This document shows, piece after piece, positions 1,798 through 12,825 of a DNA stretch of 64,000 bases (position 1 is the stretch's first letter; each line of letters opens with the position of its first letter). The position numbers and the translations under genes were made by a program. The notes under the pieces were generated by a model. It was not told the origin of the DNA and searched no databases. It saw nothing but the letters and a program-made list of their open reading frames with translations. This DNA is from Candidatus Methylomirabilis lanthanidiphila (GTDB lineage: Bacteria; Methylomirabilota; Methylomirabilia; Methylomirabilales; Methylomirabilaceae): assembly GCA_902196205.1 (NCBI GenBank), contig CABIKM010000015.1:62001-126000 (forward strand), read 5' to 3'.

Positions 1798-2544
1798 ATG
1801 ACGCTCCTATGGATTCTGACCTTTGCCGTATTGGGAAGCGTGGCAGGGGTTGCCGGTGCGGCGACGGTGCTGCTCTTTTCCGAAAAGACACTCGCCGCGC
1901 TGATTCCATACCTCGTCAGTTATGCCACCGGCACACTGCTCAGCGCGGCATTGCTCGGCTTGCTGCCCCACACCCTCGAACATCAGCCTGCGGAGATGAT
2001 ACTCGCGACCGTCCTCGCCGGTCTGTGCCTGTTCTTTGTGCTGGAGCGGATCGTCATCTGGCGGCATTGCCACGTCGTCGGACATTGTGACGTGCACAAG
2101 ACATCCGGTTATATGATTCTGGTCGGAGACGCGCTGCACAATTTCGTGGACGGCGTCATGTTGGCTGCGGCATTTCTATCCTCGGTTCCGCTCGGAATCG
2201 CCGCCGGCCTCGCCGTGATTGCGCATGAACTGCCGCAGGAGGTGGGCGACTTCGCCATCCTGCTGGACAGCGGACTGAAACGGAAGCAAGCCTTACTGCT
2301 GAATCTCCTCTCCTCCGTGCCGACGTTGCCTGGCGCGCTGCTGGGCTACTTTGCGCTGTCGCAGACTGCGGAAAGCGTTCCGTATGTCCTGGCGATCGCC
2401 GCCGCCAGCTTTTTGTATATCGGCCTCGCCGATCTGGTGCCCGGACTCCAGGGACACATCGGGCCGGAGACCGGGTGGAAACAATTCCTGCTCATGTTGA
2501 CCGGTGTCGGGACCATCCTCCTGATTCGTCGCCTTCACGGCTGA
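1798..2544 (+). CDS. ZIP-family divalent metal transporter
   Basis: A 248-residue inner-membrane protein with about 7-8 hydrophobic segments. Two ZIP signature helices are visible: GDALHNFVDGV (HNxxDG, near residue 115) and HELPQEVGD (HExPQExGD, near residue 142), which form the binuclear metal site of ZIP transporters. Between segments there is a short His/Cys-rich loop (WRHCHVVGHCDVHK), which may bind metal. Expected role is uptake of Zn or another divalent cation into the cytoplasm. It lies 89 nt before the Met-rich CpxP-like gene and may lead the copper-related operon. The metal is not decided by sequence. Confidence 0.92.
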   Translation: MTLLWILTFAVLGSVAGVAGAATVLLFSEKTLAALIPYLVSYATGTLLSAALLGLLPHTLEHQPAEMILATVLAGLCLFFVLERIVIWRHCHVVGHCDVHKTSGYMILVGDALHNFVDGVMLAAAFLSSVPLGIAAGLAVIAHELPQEVGDFAILLDSGLKRKQALLLNLLSSVPTLPGALLGYFALSQTAESVPYVLAIAAASFLYIGLADLVPGLQGHIGPETGWKQFLLMLTGVGTILLIRRLHG

Positions 2545-2633
2545 ACGACATTGGAGGACGTAGTACGTATCGACAACGACCTCATCACATCCGGAACGAG
2601 AACCGGGGAACCCAACACAAGGAGGGAAGAAAA

Positions 2634-3371
2634 ATGAAACGATGGACGGGATTACTGGCGGCAGCGTCGTTGATTGTCGCATCCGAGGCGACGTTGGTGA
2701 TGGCCCAGGAAAGGGAACGGCATATGGGCGAGATGAAGGAGTCGTGTAGTAGTAGCCGCGAGGCAGAACACGCTCAATATCGCCATTACGGCCATTACCC
2801 TCACCATTTGATCAAGTATGCGAAAGAGATCGGTCTGATACCGGACCAGATCGCCCGCCTCAAGATCATCCGACTCGAGTTCGAGCGTGTCTGTCTTCGG
2901 GCCAGGGCCGAGATCGGCGTCAGCGACCTGGAAATCGCGGTACTGACGGACGATCAGAAAGCCGCGATTGCGACGATCGAGGCGAAGGTGAAACAGCGCG
3001 CAGCGACGGTGGCCGGGCTTCAGATTGCGGCCGTCAAGGCCAAACGGGATGCCACGGCGCTCCTGACTGCTGAACAGCGGGAGAAAGACCAAGCCGTACA
3101 CGAGAAAATGATGCAGCAGATGCAGGAGCGGAGAGGCGGTATGGGGAGCGGACAGATGGGCGGTAGTATGGGTGGTATGGGTGGTGGAATGGGCGGCGGG
3201 ATGGGCGATAGCATGGGCGGTGGTCGGCGAGGTGGTGGAGGTATGGGCGGCGGTATGATGCAGGGCGGTGGACAGATGGGTGGCGGGACAATGGACGATG
3301 ACATGATGCAGGACGACCAGAACGACTCTTCGCAGCAAGAGGAATCGCAGGGCGAGCATCAGAATCATTGA
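2634..3371 (+). CDS. Secreted CpxP/Spy-like metal-sensor protein with Met/Gly-rich tail
   Basis: A 245-residue exported protein. It has a signal peptide (residues 1-24, ending VMAQ), a His-rich stretch (HYGHYPHH), and helical CpxP/Spy/ZraP-type repeats with LTxxQ-like motifs (LIPDQIARL, LTDDQKAAI, LTAEQREK). From about residue 165 to 220 it becomes a low-complexity run of Met and Gly (units such as GGMGGGMGGGMG), then an acidic Gln/His tail. Met-rich runs of this kind bind Cu(I) in other periplasmic proteins. The frame is open from 2475, but the ATG at 2634 follows GGAGGGAAG and gives the signal peptide. Role proposed: periplasmic copper buffer or sensor for the following ABC system. Confidence 0.8.
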   Translation: MKRWTGLLAAASLIVASEATLVMAQERERHMGEMKESCSSSREAEHAQYRHYGHYPHHLIKYAKEIGLIPDQIARLKIIRLEFERVCLRARAEIGVSDLEIAVLTDDQKAAIATIEAKVKQRAATVAGLQIAAVKAKRDATALLTAEQREKDQAVHEKMMQQMQERRGGMGSGQMGGSMGGMGGGMGGGMGDSMGGGRRGGGGMGGGMMQGGGQMGGGTMDDDMMQDDQNDSSQQEESQGEHQNH

Positions 3372-3402
3372 GTTCGCTGCGAACCATCCGCCTCGCGAGA
3401 CA

Positions 3403-3717
3403 ATGAGAATGAGAAAGTCCACACTCTTTTTATGTGCCGCATCCGCGGAAATCGTCGCGCTGGGCCTGCTCCTGATCCATGCGTCCCTGAGCGAGCAGGC
3501 CCGGCGCGCGAGCCTCCAACAGAATGCCGCAATAGTCAAACGCCTCGGCCTGACCGATCTGGCCCTCTTTCCTGAGGCCCGATACACGAGACATCTGTCC
3601 CAGGCGGACTGGCATTCCGCGTTCCAGGACCATCCCCTCTCCCTCGAACACTTTCCTTCCGGTTCGTTTACGCTGCCGCCGAAAGACGTGTGGTCGAACG
3701 ATGCGCGCCTGGATTGA
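3403..3717 (+). CDS. Small single-span membrane protein of unknown function
   Basis: A 104-residue protein with one N-terminal hydrophobic segment (about residues 6-27, IVALGLLLIHASL) and a predicted periplasmic remainder. I recognise no domain. It overlaps the following permease gene by 17 nt, which suggests translational coupling and a function tied to the ABC transporter. The ribosome binding site is weak; a second ATG at 3409 is equally possible. Confidence 0.65.
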   Translation: MRMRKSTLFLCAASAEIVALGLLLIHASLSEQARRASLQQNAAIVKRLGLTDLALFPEARYTRHLSQADWHSAFQDHPLSLEHFPSGSFTLPPKDVWSNDARLD

Positions 3718-4948
3718 GAAACAACGGTATCTGATCGACTTTACCCTCTCCTCGTTCCTGAGAAGAAAGGTGAAGAACGTCGGTCTGTTGATCCTCTACA
3801 CGCTGATCGTCTTCATCCTCGCCTCGGTCATGTTCTTTACCTACACGATCAAAAAGGAGGCCTCGGTCATCCTTCGCGCCTCGCCGGAAATCGTCGTTCA
3901 GAAGATGCTGGCTGGAAGACATGACGTATTCCCCGCCGGGCAGATCGACCGCCTGAAAACCGTTCGCGGGGTCGCCTCGGTCGAGGGCCGCCTCTGGGGC
4001 TATTATTTCGACCGACATGTCGCAGCCAACTATACCTTTCTCGTCCCTCCAACGTCTGTCCTGGACGATACTGACGACCCTGTTGATGCCGAAGAGCCGG
4101 AGTCGCGTGAATTTGATGACACCTCGTCCGCCACACCACTTTATCAACTCGATCCGACGGCGTTGACGCCGGGCACCATCATCATCGGGCAAGGCATTGC
4201 ACGCCTTCGGCGCGCCGGCGTCGGCGATTCTCTCTTTTTTCTCGCATTCGACGGGACCGTATTGGAGTTTCGGATCGGAGGTCTGCTATCCTCAGAATCG
4301 GAACTGGTGTCGTCCGATCTCATCCTGACGACCGACGCGGACTTTCGACGGCTGTTCGGCATTCCTCACGACGCCGTGACGGACGTCACCGTGTCGGTTC
4401 GCAACCCGAAAGAGATTCCGACCATTGCCGGAAAGATCGCGCGGCTTCTGCCTGATGCCCGTCCGATTACCCGGGACGAAATCCTGAGAACCTACGATTC
4501 GATCTTCAATTGGCGCGGAGGTATGATGCTTGTCATCCTCGCCGCCGCCGTCCTGGCATTTGTCATCTTCGCGTGGGATAAGGCCTCCGGCCTGAGCGCC
4601 GGCGAGAAACAGGAAATCGGTATTCTCAAGGCCATCGGCTGGGAAACCTCGGACATTATCGAGATGAAGTTCTGGGAAGGAGCGGTGGTGTCGCTGACCG
4701 CCTTCTTCACCGGTGTCATCCTGGCCTATCTCCATGTCTTTTTCTTGTCGTCGGTGGTGTTTGAGCCGGCCCTCAAAGGATGGTCGACCCTGTATCCGCA
4801 ATTTCGCCTGACCCCCTTCATCGATGTCGGACAACTGACGACACTCTTTTTCCTGACGGTGGTCCCCTATACCGCCGCCACGATCGTGCCGGTCTGGCGC
4901 GCCGCCACGATCGATCCCGATACGGCGATGCGCCGCGTCGGGGAGTGA
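3701..4948 (+). CDS. MacB/FtsX-type ABC transporter permease in NosL operon
   Basis: A 415-residue permease with the MacB/LolC plan: a first transmembrane helix at about residues 23-45 (VGLLILYTLIVFILASVMFF), a large periplasmic domain, then three helices in the C-terminal third (LVILAAAVLAFVIFAW, an FtsX core with EKQEIGILKAIGWE, and TLFFLTVVPYTAATI). Such permeases work with a cytoplasmic ATPase to drive shape changes in the periplasm rather than classical import. The matching ATPase starts 3 nt after the stop. The context (NosL, Met-rich protein, CxxC membrane protein) points to handling of copper or a copper chaperone. Confidence 0.88.
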   Translation: MRAWIEKQRYLIDFTLSSFLRRKVKNVGLLILYTLIVFILASVMFFTYTIKKEASVILRASPEIVVQKMLAGRHDVFPAGQIDRLKTVRGVASVEGRLWGYYFDRHVAANYTFLVPPTSVLDDTDDPVDAEEPESREFDDTSSATPLYQLDPTALTPGTIIIGQGIARLRRAGVGDSLFFLAFDGTVLEFRIGGLLSSESELVSSDLILTTDADFRRLFGIPHDAVTDVTVSVRNPKEIPTIAGKIARLLPDARPITRDEILRTYDSIFNWRGGMMLVILAAAVLAFVIFAWDKASGLSAGEKQEIGILKAIGWETSDIIEMKFWEGAVVSLTAFFTGVILAYLHVFFLSSVVFEPALKGWSTLYPQFRLTPFIDVGQLTTLFFLTVVPYTAATIVPVWRAATIDPDTAMRRVGE

Positions 4949-4951
4949 CCG

Positions 4952-5632
4952 ATGATCGAACTGACCAACGTCAAAAAAGCCTTCAATGTCGGAACGCCGA
5001 GTGAATGTTCCGCGTTGAACGGCATTACCCTGACCATCAGCGACAAGATGGCGACGGTGCTGGTCGGTCCGAGCGGGTCGGGCAAAACGACCCTGCTCAC
5101 CATCATCGGCTGCATGGCGCGACCGTCGTCCGGCCGCGTCACGCTCAACGGACGGGAGATTACCTCGCTCCCGGAACGGTTCCTGACCGAGATTCGGCGC
5201 AAGACCTTCGGGTTCATCTTCCAGCAGCCGAACCTGATCAAGGGCATCACCGCGCTGGAGAATGTGATGTTGCCGGCGTACCCGACCGGGACGGAACATG
5301 CCGCGCTCCGGGAAGAGGCCATGCGACTGCTCCATGGACTTCACCTTGCCGAGAAGGCGGTATCGAAGGTCGAGTGGCTCTCCGGCGGGGAGGCGCAGCG
5401 GGTCTCCATCGCCAGGGCGTTGATCAACAATCCGTCCGCCATCATTGCCGACGAGCCGACCGCGCATCTTGACACAAGCTTGTCCCGCCGGTTCCTGGAG
5501 ATTGTGGAGCGGTTCAAAGCGGAAGGCAAAACGATCCTGATGACCAGCCATGATCCGCTGGTCTACCAGTCTCGCGTCGTCGATCGCGTGGTGCGGCTCA
5601 GGGACGGAAAGCTCGAAGAGGCGGCAGGATGA
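4952..5632 (+). CDS. ABC transporter ATP-binding protein (LolD/MacB type)
   Basis: A 226-residue ATPase. Walker A is GPSGSGKTT (near residue 43), the Q-loop is FIFQQPNLI, the signature is LSGGEAQRVSIARAL, Walker B is AIIADEPTAHLD and the switch His is in MTSHDP. It belongs to the small ATPases that pair with FtsX-type permeases. A GGGGAG site precedes the ATG. It is encoded directly after the permease at 3701 and shares an ATGA overlap with the next gene, so all three are probably made as one complex. Confidence 0.93.
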   Translation: MIELTNVKKAFNVGTPSECSALNGITLTISDKMATVLVGPSGSGKTTLLTIIGCMARPSSGRVTLNGREITSLPERFLTEIRRKTFGFIFQQPNLIKGITALENVMLPAYPTGTEHAALREEAMRLLHGLHLAEKAVSKVEWLSGGEAQRVSIARALINNPSAIIADEPTAHLDTSLSRRFLEIVERFKAEGKTILMTSHDPLVYQSRVVDRVVRLRDGKLEEAAG

Positions 5633-6624
5633 TTCTCCACCCGGCAGTCATCGCCAATGTCGTATCCTCTCTGATTATCAGCGTCACCATCGTGTATGCG
5701 GCGGTGTACGGCGTCCAGATCCTGCTGAAGTGGGATCTTCAGAGCGGCGAGGAACTCCAGTTACGCCTCGAACGACGGACGTATCTGATTTCGACCCTGT
5801 TGAGCTTTATTTTCGCTCTGGAGCTGATGTCGCTGTTTCTTTTCGCCTTCACCGCGGATACCCTCTGCCCGTTGTTCGTCGGCGCCATGTGCGCCGCGGG
5901 GACGCTGAATGTCAATGCGTTCGGCTATCCCACCCTGCTGATGAAGATGGTCACGTTTCTTCTCGCCGGGCTCTGGCTCGTCCTCAATTATGCGGATAAC
6001 CAGGCGTACGATTATCCGCTGATCAAGAAGAAATATGCGCTGCTGGCCGTCATCGCCCCGCTGAGCGTCCTGGAAACCTTCCTGGAAGGAACCTACTTTC
6101 TGAACCTGCGCGCCGACGTGATCACCTCGTGCTGCGGCAGTCTCTTCAGCGATGAGCAGGTCACTGGGATCGGCTCGGAACTGGCGGCGCTGCCGATCCG
6201 GCCGATGATGTGGACGTTTTTCCTTGGAATGGGAGGGATGCTGCTGTTCGGGCTGTGGTTTTACATCACCGGCAAAGGGGGATATCTATATTCGCTCTTC
6301 ACGTTCACCATGTTCGGCGTCTCGCTCGTTTCCATTATCTCGTTTATCTCGCTCTATATCTACGAGCTGCCGACCCATCATTGTCCCTTCTGTATCGTCA
6401 TGAAGGAGTACGGGTATATCGGCTATGCCCTGTATCTCCCGCTCTTTCTGGGGGCGGTCACCGGTGGCGGCATCGCAACATTGATCCCGTTTCGACGCAT
6501 AGAGAGTCTTCACGCGGTTCTGCCGGCGCTGATTCGCAAATTGACGATTATCTCGCTGGCCGCATACGCGACCTTTACGGCGATTGTGATCTATGAAATC
6601 GTGGCATCGAATCTGATTCTCTAG
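5629..6624 (+). CDS. Polytopic membrane protein with CC and CxxC pairs, NosL-operon partner
   Basis: A 331-residue inner-membrane protein with about eight hydrophobic segments. It has two cysteine pairs: C168-C169 (TSCCGSLF) and C252/C255 in HHCPFC, both placed near membrane edges. HHCPFC could bind copper or act as a thiol redox pair, as in VKOR or DsbB proteins, but overall similarity to those is not evident. The start overlaps the ATPase stop by 4 nt and nosL follows 28 nt later. I do not recognise a named family; the role is inferred only from the operon. Confidence 0.75.
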   Translation: MILHPAVIANVVSSLIISVTIVYAAVYGVQILLKWDLQSGEELQLRLERRTYLISTLLSFIFALELMSLFLFAFTADTLCPLFVGAMCAAGTLNVNAFGYPTLLMKMVTFLLAGLWLVLNYADNQAYDYPLIKKKYALLAVIAPLSVLETFLEGTYFLNLRADVITSCCGSLFSDEQVTGIGSELAALPIRPMMWTFFLGMGGMLLFGLWFYITGKGGYLYSLFTFTMFGVSLVSIISFISLYIYELPTHHCPFCIVMKEYGYIGYALYLPLFLGAVTGGGIATLIPFRRIESLHAVLPALIRKLTIISLAAYATFTAIVIYEIVASNLIL

Positions 6625-6652
6625 AGAAAGGATGATACGGGGGAATGAGGAC

Positions 6653-7186
6653 ATGAGACACAGACCGTCCATCGCCTATACGGCGCTTGTCCTGATGTCG
6701 ATCGTGCTGATGACGCTGGCGGCCGTCGACAACGCCGCATCGGCAGACCGACGACAACGAGGCCTGACCAGGAGAGACAAGTGCCCGGTATGCGGCATGT
6801 TCGTCTATAAGTACCCGAAATGGATCGCCAAAATCGAGTTCCAGGACGGCCACGCGCATTTTTACGACGGCGCCAAGGATATGTTTAAACATTATATGAA
6901 TCTGTCGAAATATACGCCCGGGAGATCGGGGCACGAGATCGCGGCCGTCTTTGTCACCGACTATTATGCGGTCGAACTGGTCGAGGCCAAAGCCGCTTTT
7001 TACGTCATCGGGAGCGATGTCCTGGGCCCGATGGGGCACGAACTGATCCCGTTCAAGGATGAAGCCTCGGCGAAGGAGTTCCTGGAGGACCACAAAGGAA
7101 CGCGCATCCTGCGATTTGAAGAGGTGACGGACGAGGTCATCAAAGCGCTCGACGCGGCCCAACAAGAGAGAGGGAGGAAGCGATGA
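6653..7186 (+). CDS. nosL: NosL-family copper-binding periplasmic protein
   Basis: A 177-residue NosL protein. It has an N-terminal signal segment (residues 7-32) and the NosL metal motif CPVCGM (C44, C47, M49), followed by the usual body with FYDGAKDMFKHYMN and the FKDEASAKEFLEDHKG end motif. NosL is known as a Cu(I) lipoprotein that helps assemble nitrous oxide reductase; here there is no clear lipobox. No nosZ is in the window, so the copper target may be another enzyme. An in-frame ATG at 6632 lies too close to its AGAAAGG; the ATG at 6653 gives a cleaner signal peptide. Confidence 0.92.
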   Translation: MRHRPSIAYTALVLMSIVLMTLAAVDNAASADRRQRGLTRRDKCPVCGMFVYKYPKWIAKIEFQDGHAHFYDGAKDMFKHYMNLSKYTPGRSGHEIAAVFVTDYYAVELVEAKAAFYVIGSDVLGPMGHELIPFKDEASAKEFLEDHKGTRILRFEEVTDEVIKALDAAQQERGRKR

Positions 7187-8556
7187 AGCAGATCTGGGTG
7201 TGTATCTTAGTCTGGGCGTGCCTCGGGTCGGCTGTCGCGTTTGCGGACGACGCAGGAACAACGACTGCCGGCGAAAGGGAAGAGTGCCGGATCTGCGGCA
7301 TGTGGATCGATCAATACCAGCGAACCGCCGCCGAGCTGGTCTATAAAGACGGTCGAAAAGAACATACCTGCGGCGTGGTCTGTATGTTCCGAATCCTGGA
7401 GGATGAGGGTTTTGAGGCGTTCAGCGCCATTACGGTGCGCGACTTTGACTCGGGCGCCATCGTCGACGCCCGAGAAGCCGCTTATTCGATCGGCAGCCGG
7501 GTGATCCCCGATATGATTCCGAACATCATCGCCTTCAAGGACCGGGCCTCGGCAGAAGCGTTTCAGGCCAAAGAAGGGGGCGAAGTCATCGACTTTGAGA
7601 GAGGCCTGCAGATCATCACGCCGCGCGGCCAGACGGTGCCGTTCCGGCTGCAGACCGCCGTGACGACAGGCAAAGGATCGTTCGGGCTGGGTGCGGGGTT
7701 CGGATACCGGCGGAGGGATGACATCAAGCTCGGCTCGGACAGCCGCGATCCGCACACGTTTATCAAGAACCGACCCCAACAACCGCGCGCTCCCAGAAAG
7801 ATGGAATCGTACGGCCAATCGCTCTTTGTCAATTACGGCATCACCGACCGGCTGGCACTCCTGGCGAATCTGCCGTATTTCGAAAAAGAGACCAGTCGAT
7901 TCGAGAAGAATTTGCAGACGGGCCGAATCACGATCATAGACGCCGATGCTGCCGGATTGGGCGATCTCGATCTCCGCTTTCGCTACAACCTGTGGCGAAA
8001 TGCCGTTCAAAATACTTGGGTCACTGCGACGCTGACGACAACCATCCCAACCGGAAGATTTAATAAGGCGTTCGTCGACAGTCCCGCGCTGCAATCCGGG
8101 GCCGGCGCCCCATCGGTCGGGGGGGGCCTCCTTTTGTCATACAGTTGGCGAGACCTGTGGTTTCACTCCTCCGCGACGTATACCGGAAAACTGCGCAACG
8201 GCGATGAATACAGGTTCGGCAACGAAGCGGCAGCCGGCATCGCGCTCCACTACACGCCGCGGTATGATTATATGTTCGGGATCGAGGCGGACGCAATCCA
8301 TGCCGAAAAAAATGAGTTCAAAGGGGTAACCGTCGGCAACACCGGGGGGACCCGAGTCAATCTTACGTTTGTCGCCGACTGGAGATTTCTTCTCGCGCTG
8401 GGCGGGAATTTTACGCTGCGGGCCGCCATCGGGTTGCCGATTCATGAAGATCTGAACCGCCGCACGATCGGGCCGCGAGAGCAAGTCCAACTCGGCGGCG
8501 GATTCTTCGCGAACGCGGCGGTGACCTACGCCACCCGCTTCCCATTTTTTGAGTGA
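7183..8556 (+). CDS. NosL domain fused to an outer-membrane beta-barrel
   Basis: A 457-residue exported protein in two parts. After a signal peptide (1-21) comes a second NosL domain, residues about 30-150, with CRICGM (C35, C38, M40), HTCGVVCMF and FKDRASAEAFQAKEGG. Residues about 155-457 change to alternating amphipathic strands typical of the MetA/phenol-degradation-type transporter barrel (COG4313): TTGKGSFGLGAGFGYRRR, LGDLDLRFRYNLW, TTTIPTG, with a C-terminal aromatic end (RFPFFE). I am not aware of this fusion as a described architecture. The start overlaps nosL by 4 nt with GGGAGG upstream. It could deliver or accept copper at the outer membrane. Confidence 0.85.
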   Translation: MKQIWVCILVWACLGSAVAFADDAGTTTAGEREECRICGMWIDQYQRTAAELVYKDGRKEHTCGVVCMFRILEDEGFEAFSAITVRDFDSGAIVDAREAAYSIGSRVIPDMIPNIIAFKDRASAEAFQAKEGGEVIDFERGLQIITPRGQTVPFRLQTAVTTGKGSFGLGAGFGYRRRDDIKLGSDSRDPHTFIKNRPQQPRAPRKMESYGQSLFVNYGITDRLALLANLPYFEKETSRFEKNLQTGRITIIDADAAGLGDLDLRFRYNLWRNAVQNTWVTATLTTTIPTGRFNKAFVDSPALQSGAGAPSVGGGLLLSYSWRDLWFHSSATYTGKLRNGDEYRFGNEAAAGIALHYTPRYDYMFGIEADAIHAEKNEFKGVTVGNTGGTRVNLTFVADWRFLLALGGNFTLRAAIGLPIHEDLNRRTIGPREQVQLGGGFFANAAVTYATRFPFFE

Positions 8557-8780
8557 TACGACGATCGGGACAACAAGAGATCGAATAGCCCGACCCATGT
8601 CCTATTGTGCCTTCCGGATCTTCGCGCAGCACAGGTTCCGGGTGCGCAACCTGACGGGAATCCTACCGGACCCGGGCTCTTGCCCGTTCGGGCTTAGACA
8701 CCGGCAGTAAGCTGGATGCGCATCACGACCGCATTGCCTGAGGACAATGCACACTTCTTCGTCGCCCGGCAGGAGCTGCT

Positions 8781-9449
8781 ATGGCTCCCAATCCTAAAAC
8801 CGAACCCTTCATTCTTCACCACCGCCGCTACGACGACTGGTTCGAACGCCATCGGGCCGCCTATCTGTCCGAACTGTTGGCCGTGCGGGCGTTGCTGCCG
8901 TGGGAGGGGCGGGGACTCGAAGTCGGTGTGGGAACGGGACGCTTCGCAGGCCCCTTGGGGGTTCAGCTTGGAATTGATCTCGCCGGTGAAACACTGAGCT
9001 ACGCCCGCGGACGCGGCGTGACCGTAGCGTGCGCGGTCGCTGAAGCGCTGCCCTTCGCAGATGCGGTCTTCGACTATGCGCTCGTGGTGACCACGATCTG
9101 CTTCGTTGACGATGCGCGCGCCATGCTGCGCGAGATCGCGCGTGTGCTGAGACCCGGAGGGACGATCGTTATCGGAATGATTGATCGCGAAGGCCCTCTC
9201 GGACACGATCATCTCACCCGCCGGGCAGAGAATGTCTTTTACCGCACAGCAACCTTCTACTCGGCGGCGGAGGTCGAGGCTCTCCTCACGGAGACCGGCT
9301 TTCGCCACTTCGTCTGGGTGCAGACTGTGTCCGCACCGCTTTCCGAGATCCATGAGATTGAGCCAATCCGCCCAGGCACGGGTCGGGGCGCCTTTCTCGT
9401 GGTCGGCGCACAGGCTTCGAGGGAACAAGGCGAGCGACGCGGGTCATGA
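8781..9449 (+). CDS. SAM-dependent methyltransferase (Methyltransf_11)
   Basis: A 222-residue class I methyltransferase. The SAM-binding motif I is GLEVGVGTGRFAGPLG (near residue 44), motif II gives GIDLA, and ALPFADAVFDYALVVTTICF and LREIARVLRPGGTIVIG match motifs post-II and III. Substrate is unknown. An AGGAG sits 6 nt before the ATG. It is separated by about 220 nt from the copper operon and by 260 nt from the exporter genes, so it probably has its own promoter. Confidence 0.88.
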   Translation: MAPNPKTEPFILHHRRYDDWFERHRAAYLSELLAVRALLPWEGRGLEVGVGTGRFAGPLGVQLGIDLAGETLSYARGRGVTVACAVAEALPFADAVFDYALVVTTICFVDDARAMLREIARVLRPGGTIVIGMIDREGPLGHDHLTRRAENVFYRTATFYSAAEVEALLTETGFRHFVWVQTVSAPLSEIHEIEPIRPGTGRGAFLVVGAQASREQGERRGS

Positions 9450-9551
9450 ATTCGACTTATGTAAATGCCGGCGCGCTTTACCTGATTTTATCGGTCACAA
9501 TTGGTCCGGCTGTTGTGCCCGGCGAAGTCGTTTCGTGAAAGTGGATCATCT

Positions 9552-9584
9552 CCTGCCGATTTCCTGGAACTTCTCATCCCCTTC
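9552..9584 (+). promoter_or_regulatory. Candidate ECF-sigma promoter block, copy 1
   Basis: A 33-nt block here and at 14401-14433 match at 30 of 33 positions and share TTTCCTGGAACTT. GGAAC (9566-9570) is a classic -35 for extracytoplasmic-function sigma factors. The two copies stand upstream of the transcription units that flank the ECF sigma gene at 12984. The -10 part is less clear. This copy lies 142 nt before the HlyD gene. Confidence 0.55.
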
Positions 9585-9711
9585 CTCGCTCTTCTAAAGG
9601 CTTTTCAGGGTGTAGTGTGGGCAGAGGTTCAGGTTTCCACACATCTGGGGTCAGTTACCCACACGATTTCCGGAAGCAACCTTCCCTTTTTCGTAGGGTG
9701 AGACTTCTGGA

Positions 9712-10935
9712 GTGAAAGCTGATACACTCTTTTTGACCATGGCTCGCAATCTAATACTCGCGAAGAGTTGGAACAGGTACGGCAAACGCCTGAGCCTCTG
9801 GATAGCCGCCCTCATGATGGTTCTGCTCGGACTGAGGCTGACCATGTTCGCTCCCTATCAGGTCAAGGCGACCGGCGTGACTCGCCACGATGTCCAGCAG
9901 GAAGCATTTGGCGTGGGGACGGTTGAGGCGAAGGTCATAGTCAGCGTCGGCAGCAAGATCATCGGGCGCGTGACGGCACTCAACGTCGATCAGGGGGACC
10001 GGGTTCGTGCAGGGCAACTCCTTGCCACCCTCGAAAACCAGGATTTCCAGGAACAGGTGTCCCAAGCGGCGCACGACCTCGAGCGCACGGCGGCCGACCT
10101 GGTGGCCAACGAAGCTGCAATCAGACAGGCCGAAGCCAACCGGGCGCTTGCCCAGAAGAACTACGAGCGGTACCGAAGCCTATTCCAGGAAGGGGCTGTG
10201 TCTCGCCTCGACTTCGAGCAAAAGGAGAACGAGCATGTCGCCGCGCGTGAAGCCGTTAACACACTCCTGGCCCAGCGAACGTCGATCGAGAAACAACAGA
10301 AGAAGGCAGCGGCAAACCTGAGTTTTGCGAAGGCCAAGCTAGCCGACACCATGGTGCATGCCTCCTGCGACGGGGTGGTGGTGACCCGCGAGGTCGAGGC
10401 GGGCGATGCCGTGGTTGCGGGAGCCCCCCTTTTCCGCATCGCCGACTGCCACACCATCTGGGTCCGGGCTCACGTCGATGAGACGGTCGCCGGCGCGATT
10501 CGCGTGGGCCAGCCGGCCCGGGTCATCCTGCGGTCCCATCCTGAGCAGAGCCTCCCAGGCCAGGTCGCCAGGGTGGAGGTCGAGAGCGATCGGGTGACCG
10601 AGGAGAGGGCGGTCAATGTGACTTTCCCCGTACCCTCCCCTATCCCGCCCATTGGAGAGCAAGCAGAGGTCTACATCGTCACAGGGCAGAAAGCTCAAGT
10701 CCCCGCGCTGCCGCAGAAGGCATTGGTCCCCATTGGGAAATCGTTCGGAGTCTGGCTTATCAAAGGTGACCGGGTTCACCTGCGCCAGGTGCAGGTCGGG
10801 ATCTCGGACCCCTCCGGCTGGATCGAAATTGTCGGCGGGTTGAACAGCACTGACCGGGTCGCTCTTGCCCCGCCGGAGATCATGTTGCGACTCAAGGACA
10901 ACGCTCGAGTCTCCGTAAGCGAGGCAAGGTCATGA
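9712..10935 (+). CDS. HlyD/MacA-type membrane fusion protein
   Basis: A 407-residue periplasmic adaptor. It has a membrane anchor (about residues 27-50), a lipoyl-like half (VGSKIIGRVTALNVDQGDRV), a long coiled-coil hairpin (residues about 105-200, with QAEANRALAQKNYERYRSLF), the second lipoyl half (ASCDGVVVTREVEAGD) and beta-barrel domains. Such adaptors link an inner-membrane ABC exporter to an outer-membrane channel. The downstream permease and ATPase make a DevBCA/MacAB-like set. The GTG start at 9712 is tentative; the ATG at 9739 is possible but lacks a binding site. Confidence 0.9.
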   Translation: MKADTLFLTMARNLILAKSWNRYGKRLSLWIAALMMVLLGLRLTMFAPYQVKATGVTRHDVQQEAFGVGTVEAKVIVSVGSKIIGRVTALNVDQGDRVRAGQLLATLENQDFQEQVSQAAHDLERTAADLVANEAAIRQAEANRALAQKNYERYRSLFQEGAVSRLDFEQKENEHVAAREAVNTLLAQRTSIEKQQKKAAANLSFAKAKLADTMVHASCDGVVVTREVEAGDAVVAGAPLFRIADCHTIWVRAHVDETVAGAIRVGQPARVILRSHPEQSLPGQVARVEVESDRVTEERAVNVTFPVPSPIPPIGEQAEVYIVTGQKAQVPALPQKALVPIGKSFGVWLIKGDRVHLRQVQVGISDPSGWIEIVGGLNSTDRVALAPPEIMLRLKDNARVSVSEARS

Positions 10936-12134
10936 ACCTGGCCATTCGCGACATCAGGCATAACAAAGACCGGTTCATCCTCACCTGTCTGGGCTTGGGA
11001 CTGCTGATTTCCGTCGTCATGGCGATGAGCGGCATCTATGCGGGCCTCATTACCGACGCAACTGCGCTCCTCCGCCAAGTCGATGCGGACATCTGGGTAG
11101 TGGAGAAAGACACCTTCGGGCCATTCGCCGACGACTCCCGCATCCCGGAAGATCTGCAGTACAACATCCGGTCAGTCCCCGGGGTGGTGCAAGCCGCACC
11201 CCTCTCTTTCCGCAATATGCAGCTCGATTACCGCGGGCGGACCCTAAGGTTCTATCTCGTCGGCTACCGCTGGGACGGCATCGGCGGCCCGCGCCATCTG
11301 ATCGCCGGCCGACAGATCGGGCGCAAGCACTACGAGTTGGTGGCTGACCAGAAGCTCGGGCTCAATCTCGGTGACGTGCTCCATCTGGGGCTGCACGATT
11401 ACACCGTGGTGGGGCTGACCAGGAATATCGTCTCGCCGGCCGGCGATCCGGTTATCTACGCCTCTCTGGCCGACGCCCAAGAACTCTCGTTCCAAAAGAC
11501 GAATGAGGCGATTCGGAATGAGCGGGCCCGCCTGGCCGCACGTCTGAAAAACTTCGAAAAGAAAGTGCCTGGCCTCGCCCATGAGCTTGAGGCTACGGTT
11601 GAAGAGATCGTAGGCAACACGCACATCGTCAACGCCGTCATTGCCAGGATCGATCGCCAAGAAACCTCCGAGGCCGTGGCCGCCAGAATCCTCCGGTGGA
11701 CCCACTACACCGCCCTGACCAGTGCGCAGGAGGAGGAGATCCTCACGAAACACGTGATTGAGAAGCCCCGGCGACAGCTCGGGCTCTTCCGAATCATCCT
11801 GCTTGTCATCTCGGCTGTCATCATCGCGCTCATCGTCTACACGCTCACTATCGAGAAACTTCGGGATCTCGCCACGCTAAAGCTGATCGGAGCGGCCAAT
11901 CGTCGGATCGTCGGGCTGATCATGCAGCAATCTCTGGCGATGGGCATCCTGGGCTATCTGATTGGGGCTGCCATCATCTATTCGACCTACGACAAGTTTC
12001 CTCGGCGCGTCGTCCTGCTTCCGATCGACATGGGGGTCTTGTTTGTCATCGTCATCGCCCTCTGCGCAGTCGGAAGCCTCCAGGGGGTGCGAACCGCGCT
12101 CAAGGTTGATCCATCGGTCATATTGGGAACCTGA
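10932..12134 (+). CDS. FtsX/DevC-type ABC exporter permease
   Basis: A 400-residue permease with a first helix at residues 16-38, a large periplasmic domain (with DADIWVVEKDTFGPFADDSR typical of DevC-like proteins), and three helices near 290-385. The FtsX motif IEKLRDLATLKLIGA is visible. The gene overlaps the adaptor by 4 nt, and the ATPase starts one base after the stop. The three proteins likely export an unknown substrate across the envelope or drive an envelope rearrangement, under stress control by the neighbouring ECF sigma factor. Confidence 0.9.
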   Translation: MNLAIRDIRHNKDRFILTCLGLGLLISVVMAMSGIYAGLITDATALLRQVDADIWVVEKDTFGPFADDSRIPEDLQYNIRSVPGVVQAAPLSFRNMQLDYRGRTLRFYLVGYRWDGIGGPRHLIAGRQIGRKHYELVADQKLGLNLGDVLHLGLHDYTVVGLTRNIVSPAGDPVIYASLADAQELSFQKTNEAIRNERARLAARLKNFEKKVPGLAHELEATVEEIVGNTHIVNAVIARIDRQETSEAVAARILRWTHYTALTSAQEEEILTKHVIEKPRRQLGLFRIILLVISAVIIALIVYTLTIEKLRDLATLKLIGAANRRIVGLIMQQSLAMGILGYLIGAAIIYSTYDKFPRRVVLLPIDMGVLFVIVIALCAVGSLQGVRTALKVDPSVILGT

Positions 12135-12135
12135 G

Positions 12136-12825
12136 ATGGAGCCGGTAGTCCGAGTACGCAAGCTCACCAAGGTCTATGGAAGCGGCGACACGGCAGTCAC
12201 GGCCCTATCAGACGCCGACCTGGAGGTGTTTCCCGCCGAACTCGTCGCCGTCATCGGACCGAGCGGCTCGGGAAAAACAACCCTCCTCACCGCCATCGGG
12301 TGCGTCAAGGAGCCCACGAGCGGGTACATCGAGATCGACGGCCGGGTGGTCTTTGACAACGGTTGGCATAAGGTGGACCTCCTCCAGCTCCGGCGTGAGA
12401 AGATCGGCTTTATCCTCCAATCGTTTAACCTCCTCCCCTTCCTGACCACCCTGGAAAATGTGCTCATCGCTATGGACCTGGTGGGCAGGCGTGGGGAAGA
12501 GGCCAGGGAGAAGGCGACCGGCTTGCTTGACTATCTGCAAGTGGCGCATCGCCTCGGTGCGTACCCGGAGGGCCTTTCCGGCGGGGAGAAGCAGCGGGTC
12601 GCGATCGCCCGGGCGTTGGCGAACGACCCCAAGATCCTCCTCGCGGATGAACCTACGGCCCAACTCGATACGGATCGGGGGAAGACCGTAATGAGCCTCA
12701 TGATGAAGCTGGCCAAGGAGAAGAACTCCGCCGTGATCGTCGTCACGCACGATCGCAGGATGATAGAGGGTTTCGATCGCATTTATATGCTGGAAGACGG
12801 GAGGATGCTGAATCATCAGCGATAG
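12136..12825 (+). CDS. ABC exporter ATP-binding protein (DevA/LolD type)
   Basis: A 229-residue ATPase with Walker A GPSGSGKTT (residues about 40-48), Q-loop FILQSFNLL, signature LSGGEKQRVAIARAL, Walker B ILLADEPTAQLD and switch His in VVTHD. The true start is the ATG at 12136 right after the permease stop; a longer in-frame reading from 11962 only overlaps the permease. Partner of the adaptor and permease upstream. Confidence 0.93.
   Translation: MEPVVRVRKLTKVYGSGDTAVTALSDADLEVFPAELVAVIGPSGSGKTTLLTAIGCVKEPTSGYIEIDGRVVFDNGWHKVDLLQLRREKIGFILQSFNLLPFLTTLENVLIAMDLVGRRGEEAREKATGLLDYLQVAHRLGAYPEGLSGGEKQRVAIARALANDPKILLADEPTAQLDTDRGKTVMSLMMKLAKEKNSAVIVVTHDRRMIEGFDRIYMLEDGRMLNHQR

Follow-up and report, generated by a model that had tools for sequence, protein, structure and literature searches.

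NosL proteins are Cu(I) chaperones, and the likely ligands or conserved residues of the P. denitrificans-type protein are the cysteine of a CXM motif, its methionine and another absolutely conserved methionine, the motif taking the form CXXCXM in clade II (PMC6530538). The known members of the family (PF05573; P. stutzeri, 7osf and 7znq; P. denitrificans) are small, stand-alone and often lipoproteins; they are exported to the periplasm, serve NosZ and are encoded next to ABC transporter genes. The COG4313 channels Pput2725 (4rl8), SphA and TcpY are PF13557 barrels that carry a PTG motif and have been described without a metal domain and with roles proposed for hydrophobic molecules. In Pput2725, a short segment (~14 residues) preceding strand 1 plugs the lumen (PMC4493636). 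In the two-part FapF (5o65, 5o67, 5o68), a periplasmic N-terminal domain is joined to the plug that gates a 12-strand barrel (PMC5557850), the periplasmic part being a coiled coil and the cargo an amyloid protein. Systems such as NosDFYL and CusCFBA combine a periplasmic Cu(I) chaperone with an inner-membrane machine. To our knowledge, the passage and management of copper at the outer membrane are poorly known beyond CusC-type exits and TonB-linked uptake.

In the window analysed here (the whole stretch of 64,000 nucleotides from Candidatus Methylomirabilis lanthanidiphila), positions 7183-8556 of the forward strand form one intact ORF of 457 aa without internal stop, with a Shine-Dalgarno-like GGAGG and an ATG that overlaps the stop of an upstream NosL gene (ATGA). 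An earlier note, made from the sequence alone, had proposed that this frame joins a NosL domain with a complete CRICGM metal motif to about 300 residues of outer-membrane barrel. Pfam searches establish both domain families above their cut-offs, with residues 30-139 matching NosL (PF05573; E 8.7e-19; 68.6 bits, cut-off 24) and residues 222-369 matching Phenol_MetA_deg (PF13557; E 2e-6; 28.5 bits, cut-off 22), and the CRICGM motif lies at residues 35-40. The gene, its parts and the cluster genes upstream of it are as follows.

3403..3717 (+): small conserved protein, 104 aa, no family match, conserved in related loci
3701..4948 (+): FtsX-type permease (LolC/E-like), by Pfam and NCBIfam
4952..5632 (+): ABC ATPase of LolD/MacB type, by Pfam and NCBIfam
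5629..6624 (+): MP331, uncharacterised polytopic membrane protein, 331 aa, ~8 helices, with conserved motifs
6632..7186 (+): stand-alone NosL, 184 aa, its stop overlapping the fusion start
7183..8556 (+): NosL-barrel fusion gene, 457 aa, by ORF, Pfam and AlphaFold2 model
7183..7248 (+): signal peptide, residues 1-22 (MKQIWVCILVWACLGSAVAFADD), by eye
7273..7602 (+): NosL domain, residues ~31-140, by Pfam, conservation and alignment to solved NosLs
7603..7677 (+): linker/plug segment, residues 141-165, by very strong conservation
7678..8538 (+): COG4313/PF13557-type barrel, residues 166-452, by Pfam, AlphaFold2, Foldseek and conservation

By eye, the N-terminus of the fusion is a signal peptide of the Sec/SPase I type that lacks a lipobox cysteine, and this region forms a helix (residues 3-17) in the AlphaFold2 model. 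At the opposite end, the aromatic terminus that the earlier note had also described holds for the residues next to last, whereas the final residue is Glu (...TRFPFFE); among the fusion homologues the last residue is F, Y, H, M or others. NCBIfam returned no name for the fusion, the stand-alone NosL or MP331, promoter and terminator scans yielded sites no more common than in shuffled sequences, and no Rfam element other than a tRNA was found in the window.

The AlphaFold2 model of the fusion, built from our alignment of full-length homologues (A2), reached a mean pLDDT of 87.5 and a pTM of 0.83. It places a mixed alpha/beta domain at residues ~34-144, followed by the antiparallel strands of a barrel at 166-452, so that a barrel, the absence of which would have undone the earlier proposal, is predicted with confidence and resembles solved COG4313 channels. 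DSSP divides the modelled barrel into 13 segments; on our own reading, 249-259 and 262-272 may be taken as a single kinked strand, which would give 12 strands, as in the solved relatives. The best Foldseek match was the COG4313 channel 4rl8 (E 5.7e-13, TM 0.76-0.78 by target length) and the second was FapF, while a PDB profile search with the fusion returned NosL (7osf/7og7, 6e-11) and FapF (0.0018). Like Pput2725, SphA and TcpY, the fusion contains the PTG motif (residues 289-291; P289 and G291 are invariant and T290 nearly so). Segment 141-165, conserved just before strand 1, occupies the place of the Pput2725 lumen plug and connects that plug with the NosL domain. The fusion shares the two-part layout of FapF, in which a periplasmic domain is joined to a gating plug and a barrel, but carries a NosL domain in place of the coiled coil. 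The location of the protein in the outer membrane is inferred.

The NosL half bears C35xxC38-G-M40, a C63-G-x-x-C67 pair and M111, and alignment to solved NosLs pairs C35, C38, M40 and M111, so that the CXXCXM motif and distant methionine of the described site are wholly present. The fusion shares with known NosLs the fold family, C-x-x-C-G-M, the second methionine, periplasmic export and adjacent ABC transporter genes, and differs from them in its attached outer-membrane-type barrel, in the extra C63-GxxC67 pair and in its occurrence in genomes without NosZ. That the domain binds copper in vivo is an inference.

Alignment A2 comprises 30 rows representing 29 distinct genes (L005 and L012 are the same locus). 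Over these rows, C35, C38, G39, M40, C63 and M111 are invariant in the NosL domain, as are P147, G149, T151, P153 and R155 in the linker and P289, G291, H328, H356, E368, D370 and others in the barrel. C67 is missing in L064 and in the frameshifted L061, in both of which the second cysteine pair reads CGVADLxR. Between close pairs, dN/dS (Nei-Gojobori) is 0.08-0.13 for the NosL domain, 0.04-0.10 for the barrel and 0-0.03 for the linker, the last resting on 25 codons only. As judged from these sequence comparisons, both halves are under purifying selection, and the constraint on the linker is demonstrably strong. Judging by the parity of the strands and the register of the hairpins, H328 and H356 are inferred to point into the lumen from opposite sides. 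FapF has a Phe at the H328 position in the alignment, and other COG4313 barrels of the window's genus have neither histidine.

These patterns bear on the main rival to a working channel, according to which the barrel merely attaches a Cu(I)-NosL domain to the outer membrane on its inner leaflet; the domain would buffer copper there or load other envelope proteins, and the pore would go unused. Solved COG4313 and FapF barrels are indeed plugged and almost closed (PMC4493636, PMC5557850), many NosLs are lipoproteins (7osf is annotated as one), making membrane anchoring normal in the family, and the plain signal peptide of the fused form means that the barrel could stand in for a lipid anchor. 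Stronger conservation of the linker than of either domain is, however, unexpected for a pure tether, as are the invariant and probably lumen-facing H328, H356, E368 and D370. We therefore regard pure anchoring as unlikely, though it cannot be set aside lightly, and infer that the linker probably does mechanical work, since a mere tether would not be held so tightly.

A scan of genome contigs retrieved 12 full-length fusions with 34-81% identity, from Methylomirabilis, from Methylococcales including Methylobacter tundripaludum, Methylomonas and Methylovulum, and from MAGs titled Deltaproteobacteria/Desulfobacteraceae/Desulfobulbaceae and Nitrospirae. The full set of 29 distinct full-length fusions spans Ca. 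Methylomirabilis, Methylococcales methanotrophs and MAGs labelled Desulfobacterota/Deltaproteobacteria and Nitrospirae. The nearest relatives of the window belong to the same genus, with proteins 83-86% identical, and the relatives include a named Ca. Methylomirabilis record (NSJM01000093). Since both Pfam families are matched in all 30 rows of A2, the fusion lies far beyond chance, and the mistaken joining of two genes by a frameshift, which the earlier note had raised against its own reading, is ruled out by the 29 distinct genes, some of which lie on contigs of several Mb.

Profile searches detected the fusion, complete or fragmentary, in 22 of the 251 Methylococcales genomes, in three of the eight genomes of a small phylum around one Nitrospirae-titled MAG and in a handful of 395 genomes sampled from another phylum; within the window's own genus it is present in just 4 of 15. 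In a tree with 64 unfused NosLs, the fused NosL domains form one clade (support 99/90), which points to the fusion having arisen once and then been spread or lost, as far as a short domain with unsure deeper branches may indicate. Two copies, in L061 and L053, contain frameshifts. In L014 (12112-13689), a partial second copy of the barrel and duplicated NosL genes adjoin an intact fusion, resembling a decaying tandem duplication. L142, another genome of the window's genus, lacks the fusion and contains (2894-11983) two COG4313-type barrel genes near an apparent heavy-metal ATPase with an HMA start (by eye). The possibility of a selenocysteine at a TGA codon in L066 and L067 was rejected, as this codon terminates an ordinary unfused NosL.

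The genomic context of the fusion extends well past the earlier picture of a single unusual protein: it sits in an established conserved operon, a module of ABC transporter, NosL and membrane protein to which the fusion adds an optional outer-membrane part. In Methylomirabilis and Methylococcales the small protein comes first, followed by the FtsX permease, LolD ATPase, MP331, NosL and fusion, with a TlpA/ResA-like thioredoxin gene between NosL and fusion in Methylococcales; methanotroph loci also contain TlpA/ResA thioredoxin and DsbD genes. In Nitrospirae MAGs and L022, the fusion is located upstream of the same cluster genes, and the cluster is conserved over several phyla. The recurrence of the same architecture in copper-related operons, which the earlier note had named as support for a real family, was borne out across many independent genomes. 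The resemblance to NosDFYL and CusCFBA, in our comparison, ends at the ABC components, which are of FtsX/LolD type, at the added unknown membrane protein and at the chaperone domain carried on an outer-membrane part. Immediately upstream of the operon, window positions 1798-3371 encode a ZIP-family metal transporter and, after it, an exported protein that is rich in Met and Gly and of Spy/CpxP-like appearance. A second ABC exporter (HlyD adaptor, MacB-like permease and ATPase), without an adjacent TolC, is encoded at 9712-12825; in L112, a similar HlyD/MacB-like exporter cluster with an OEP/TolC gene adjoins the NosL-FtsX-LolD-MP331 module.

MP331 has invariant GAMC, S-C-CG and HCPF motifs and widely accompanies NosL and the FtsX/LolD transporter. 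It has no match in Pfam or NCBIfam, and its model (pLDDT 72.6) found no PDB match at E 0.001. Among the 251 Methylococcales genomes, MP331 and the fusion occur in 22 each and together in 19 (Fisher P = 1.4e-22, uncorrected for genome relatedness). In the phylum sampled with 395 genomes, MP331 is present in 59, and the 20 loci inspected harbor mostly one or two free NosLs and no such barrel. The barrel is accordingly inessential to the ABC/NosL module, which occurs in many genomes without any barrel. In the Nitrospirae MAG L028, the barrel has a gene of its own, which immediately precedes NosL genes and the remainder of the module; at positions 3534-6130 of this locus, the unfused COG4313 barrel, a single NosL and a protein of two tandem NosLs are encoded ahead of the same ABC module. 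This unfused counterpart shares the gene context of the fusion, which argues that barrel and NosL work together.

The setting is one of copper or soft-metal handling. Several of the MP331 loci in the 395-genome sample adjoin CusA/CzcA-family RND pumps and CusB-like adaptors; no RND pump or CusB adaptor was seen in the window's own cluster, CusA/CusB-like genes adjoining only related Desulfobacterota clusters. Such pumps are not all copper pumps, and COG4313 channels handle hydrophobic cargo (PMC4493636), leaving room for a NosL domain that carries or senses another soft metal (such as Zn, Hg or Ag) or for a barrel that passes a hydrophobic or peptide metal-chelate. We consider this improbable: the CxxC-G-M motif with a distant methionine matches the clade II NosL Cu(I) site (PMC6530538), and all of its residues are invariant here.

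A narrower role, in which the fusion delivers copper to a single enzyme, either nitrous oxide reductase or particulate methane monooxygenase (pMMO), could be read from the L022 locus, which lies within a nos cluster with NosZ, NosD, NosF and NosL, and from the predominance of methanotrophs among the matches, pmoB being present in 22 of 34 fusion or related genomes. The distributions do not match, however. NosZ, service to which is the classical role of NosL but no criterion of family membership by sequence, is found in one of these 34 genomes. Of the 251 Methylococcales genomes, 218 have pMMO and 22 the fusion; among the 15 genomes of the window's genus the corresponding numbers are 10 and 4. 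The fusion-bearing Desulfobacterota and Nitrospirae MAGs lack pmoB. With NosZ rare and pMMO far more common than the fusion, both were rejected as dedicated partners, and a role tied to one enzyme appears very improbable. The nos cluster of L022 also encodes (4323-5117) a 264-residue protein with a weak cupredoxin-like C-terminal match (E 0.002).

Taken together, our best reading is that the fusion provides an outer-membrane copper port or an anchored Cu(I) relay, with the barrel probably gated or loaded by the NosL domain. It would be an outer-membrane channel of the COG4313 kind in which a periplasmic Cu(I)-binding domain of the NosL type has been added to the usual N-terminal plug region. 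The stand-alone NosL and the barrel-borne domain would pass Cu(I) between them, the FtsX/LolD-type ABC transporter and the Cys/Met/His-bearing MP331 would act on this relay from the inner membrane, and copper on the NosL domain may open or close the barrel via the hyper-conserved linker to the plug. We hold this proposal as a whole with some, if far from full, confidence; gating is inferred. A stricter form of it, in which Cu(I) on the NosL domain moves the plug and opens a barrel with its own lumen His/Glu copper site, fed by free NosL and the ABC transporter in a NosDFY-like relay, is possible but doubtful. Several observations weigh against the proposal. Where the function of COG4313 channels is known, hydrophobic molecules are taken up or protein is exported, and metals are not the cargo, the unfused L028 barrel keeps the histidine pair only in part (H328 but not H356), and the frequent absence of a barrel from the ABC/NosL module counts on the same side. 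The direction of transport is likewise unsettled. We lean slightly and tentatively toward release of excess periplasmic Cu(I), because efflux pumps adjoin the module in lineages not known to us for a heavy copper need; intake or supply, favored by the nos-cluster case and the methanotroph distribution, remains possible but is somewhat less expected.

In the literature searched, which did not extend to preprints and most subscription papers, we found no account of NosL-barrel proteins or of the cluster, in line with the earlier note's impression that no such protein had been described. Both building blocks are known, and the joined protein and its cluster are undescribed within that literature; we do not claim a new type of system until gating or transport has been shown. 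Copper is a dependency of methanotrophs, and the presence of the fusion within a conserved copper-handling cluster suggests that copper is moved or sensed at the cell surface in a manner not yet described. The cluster also indicates a wider unannotated copper module, comprising a free NosL, the small protein, FtsX, LolD and an unknown Cys/Met/His membrane protein. With a Cu(I) chaperone welded to a channel, the single fusion gene offers a direct handle: one protein, one motif and one knock-out.
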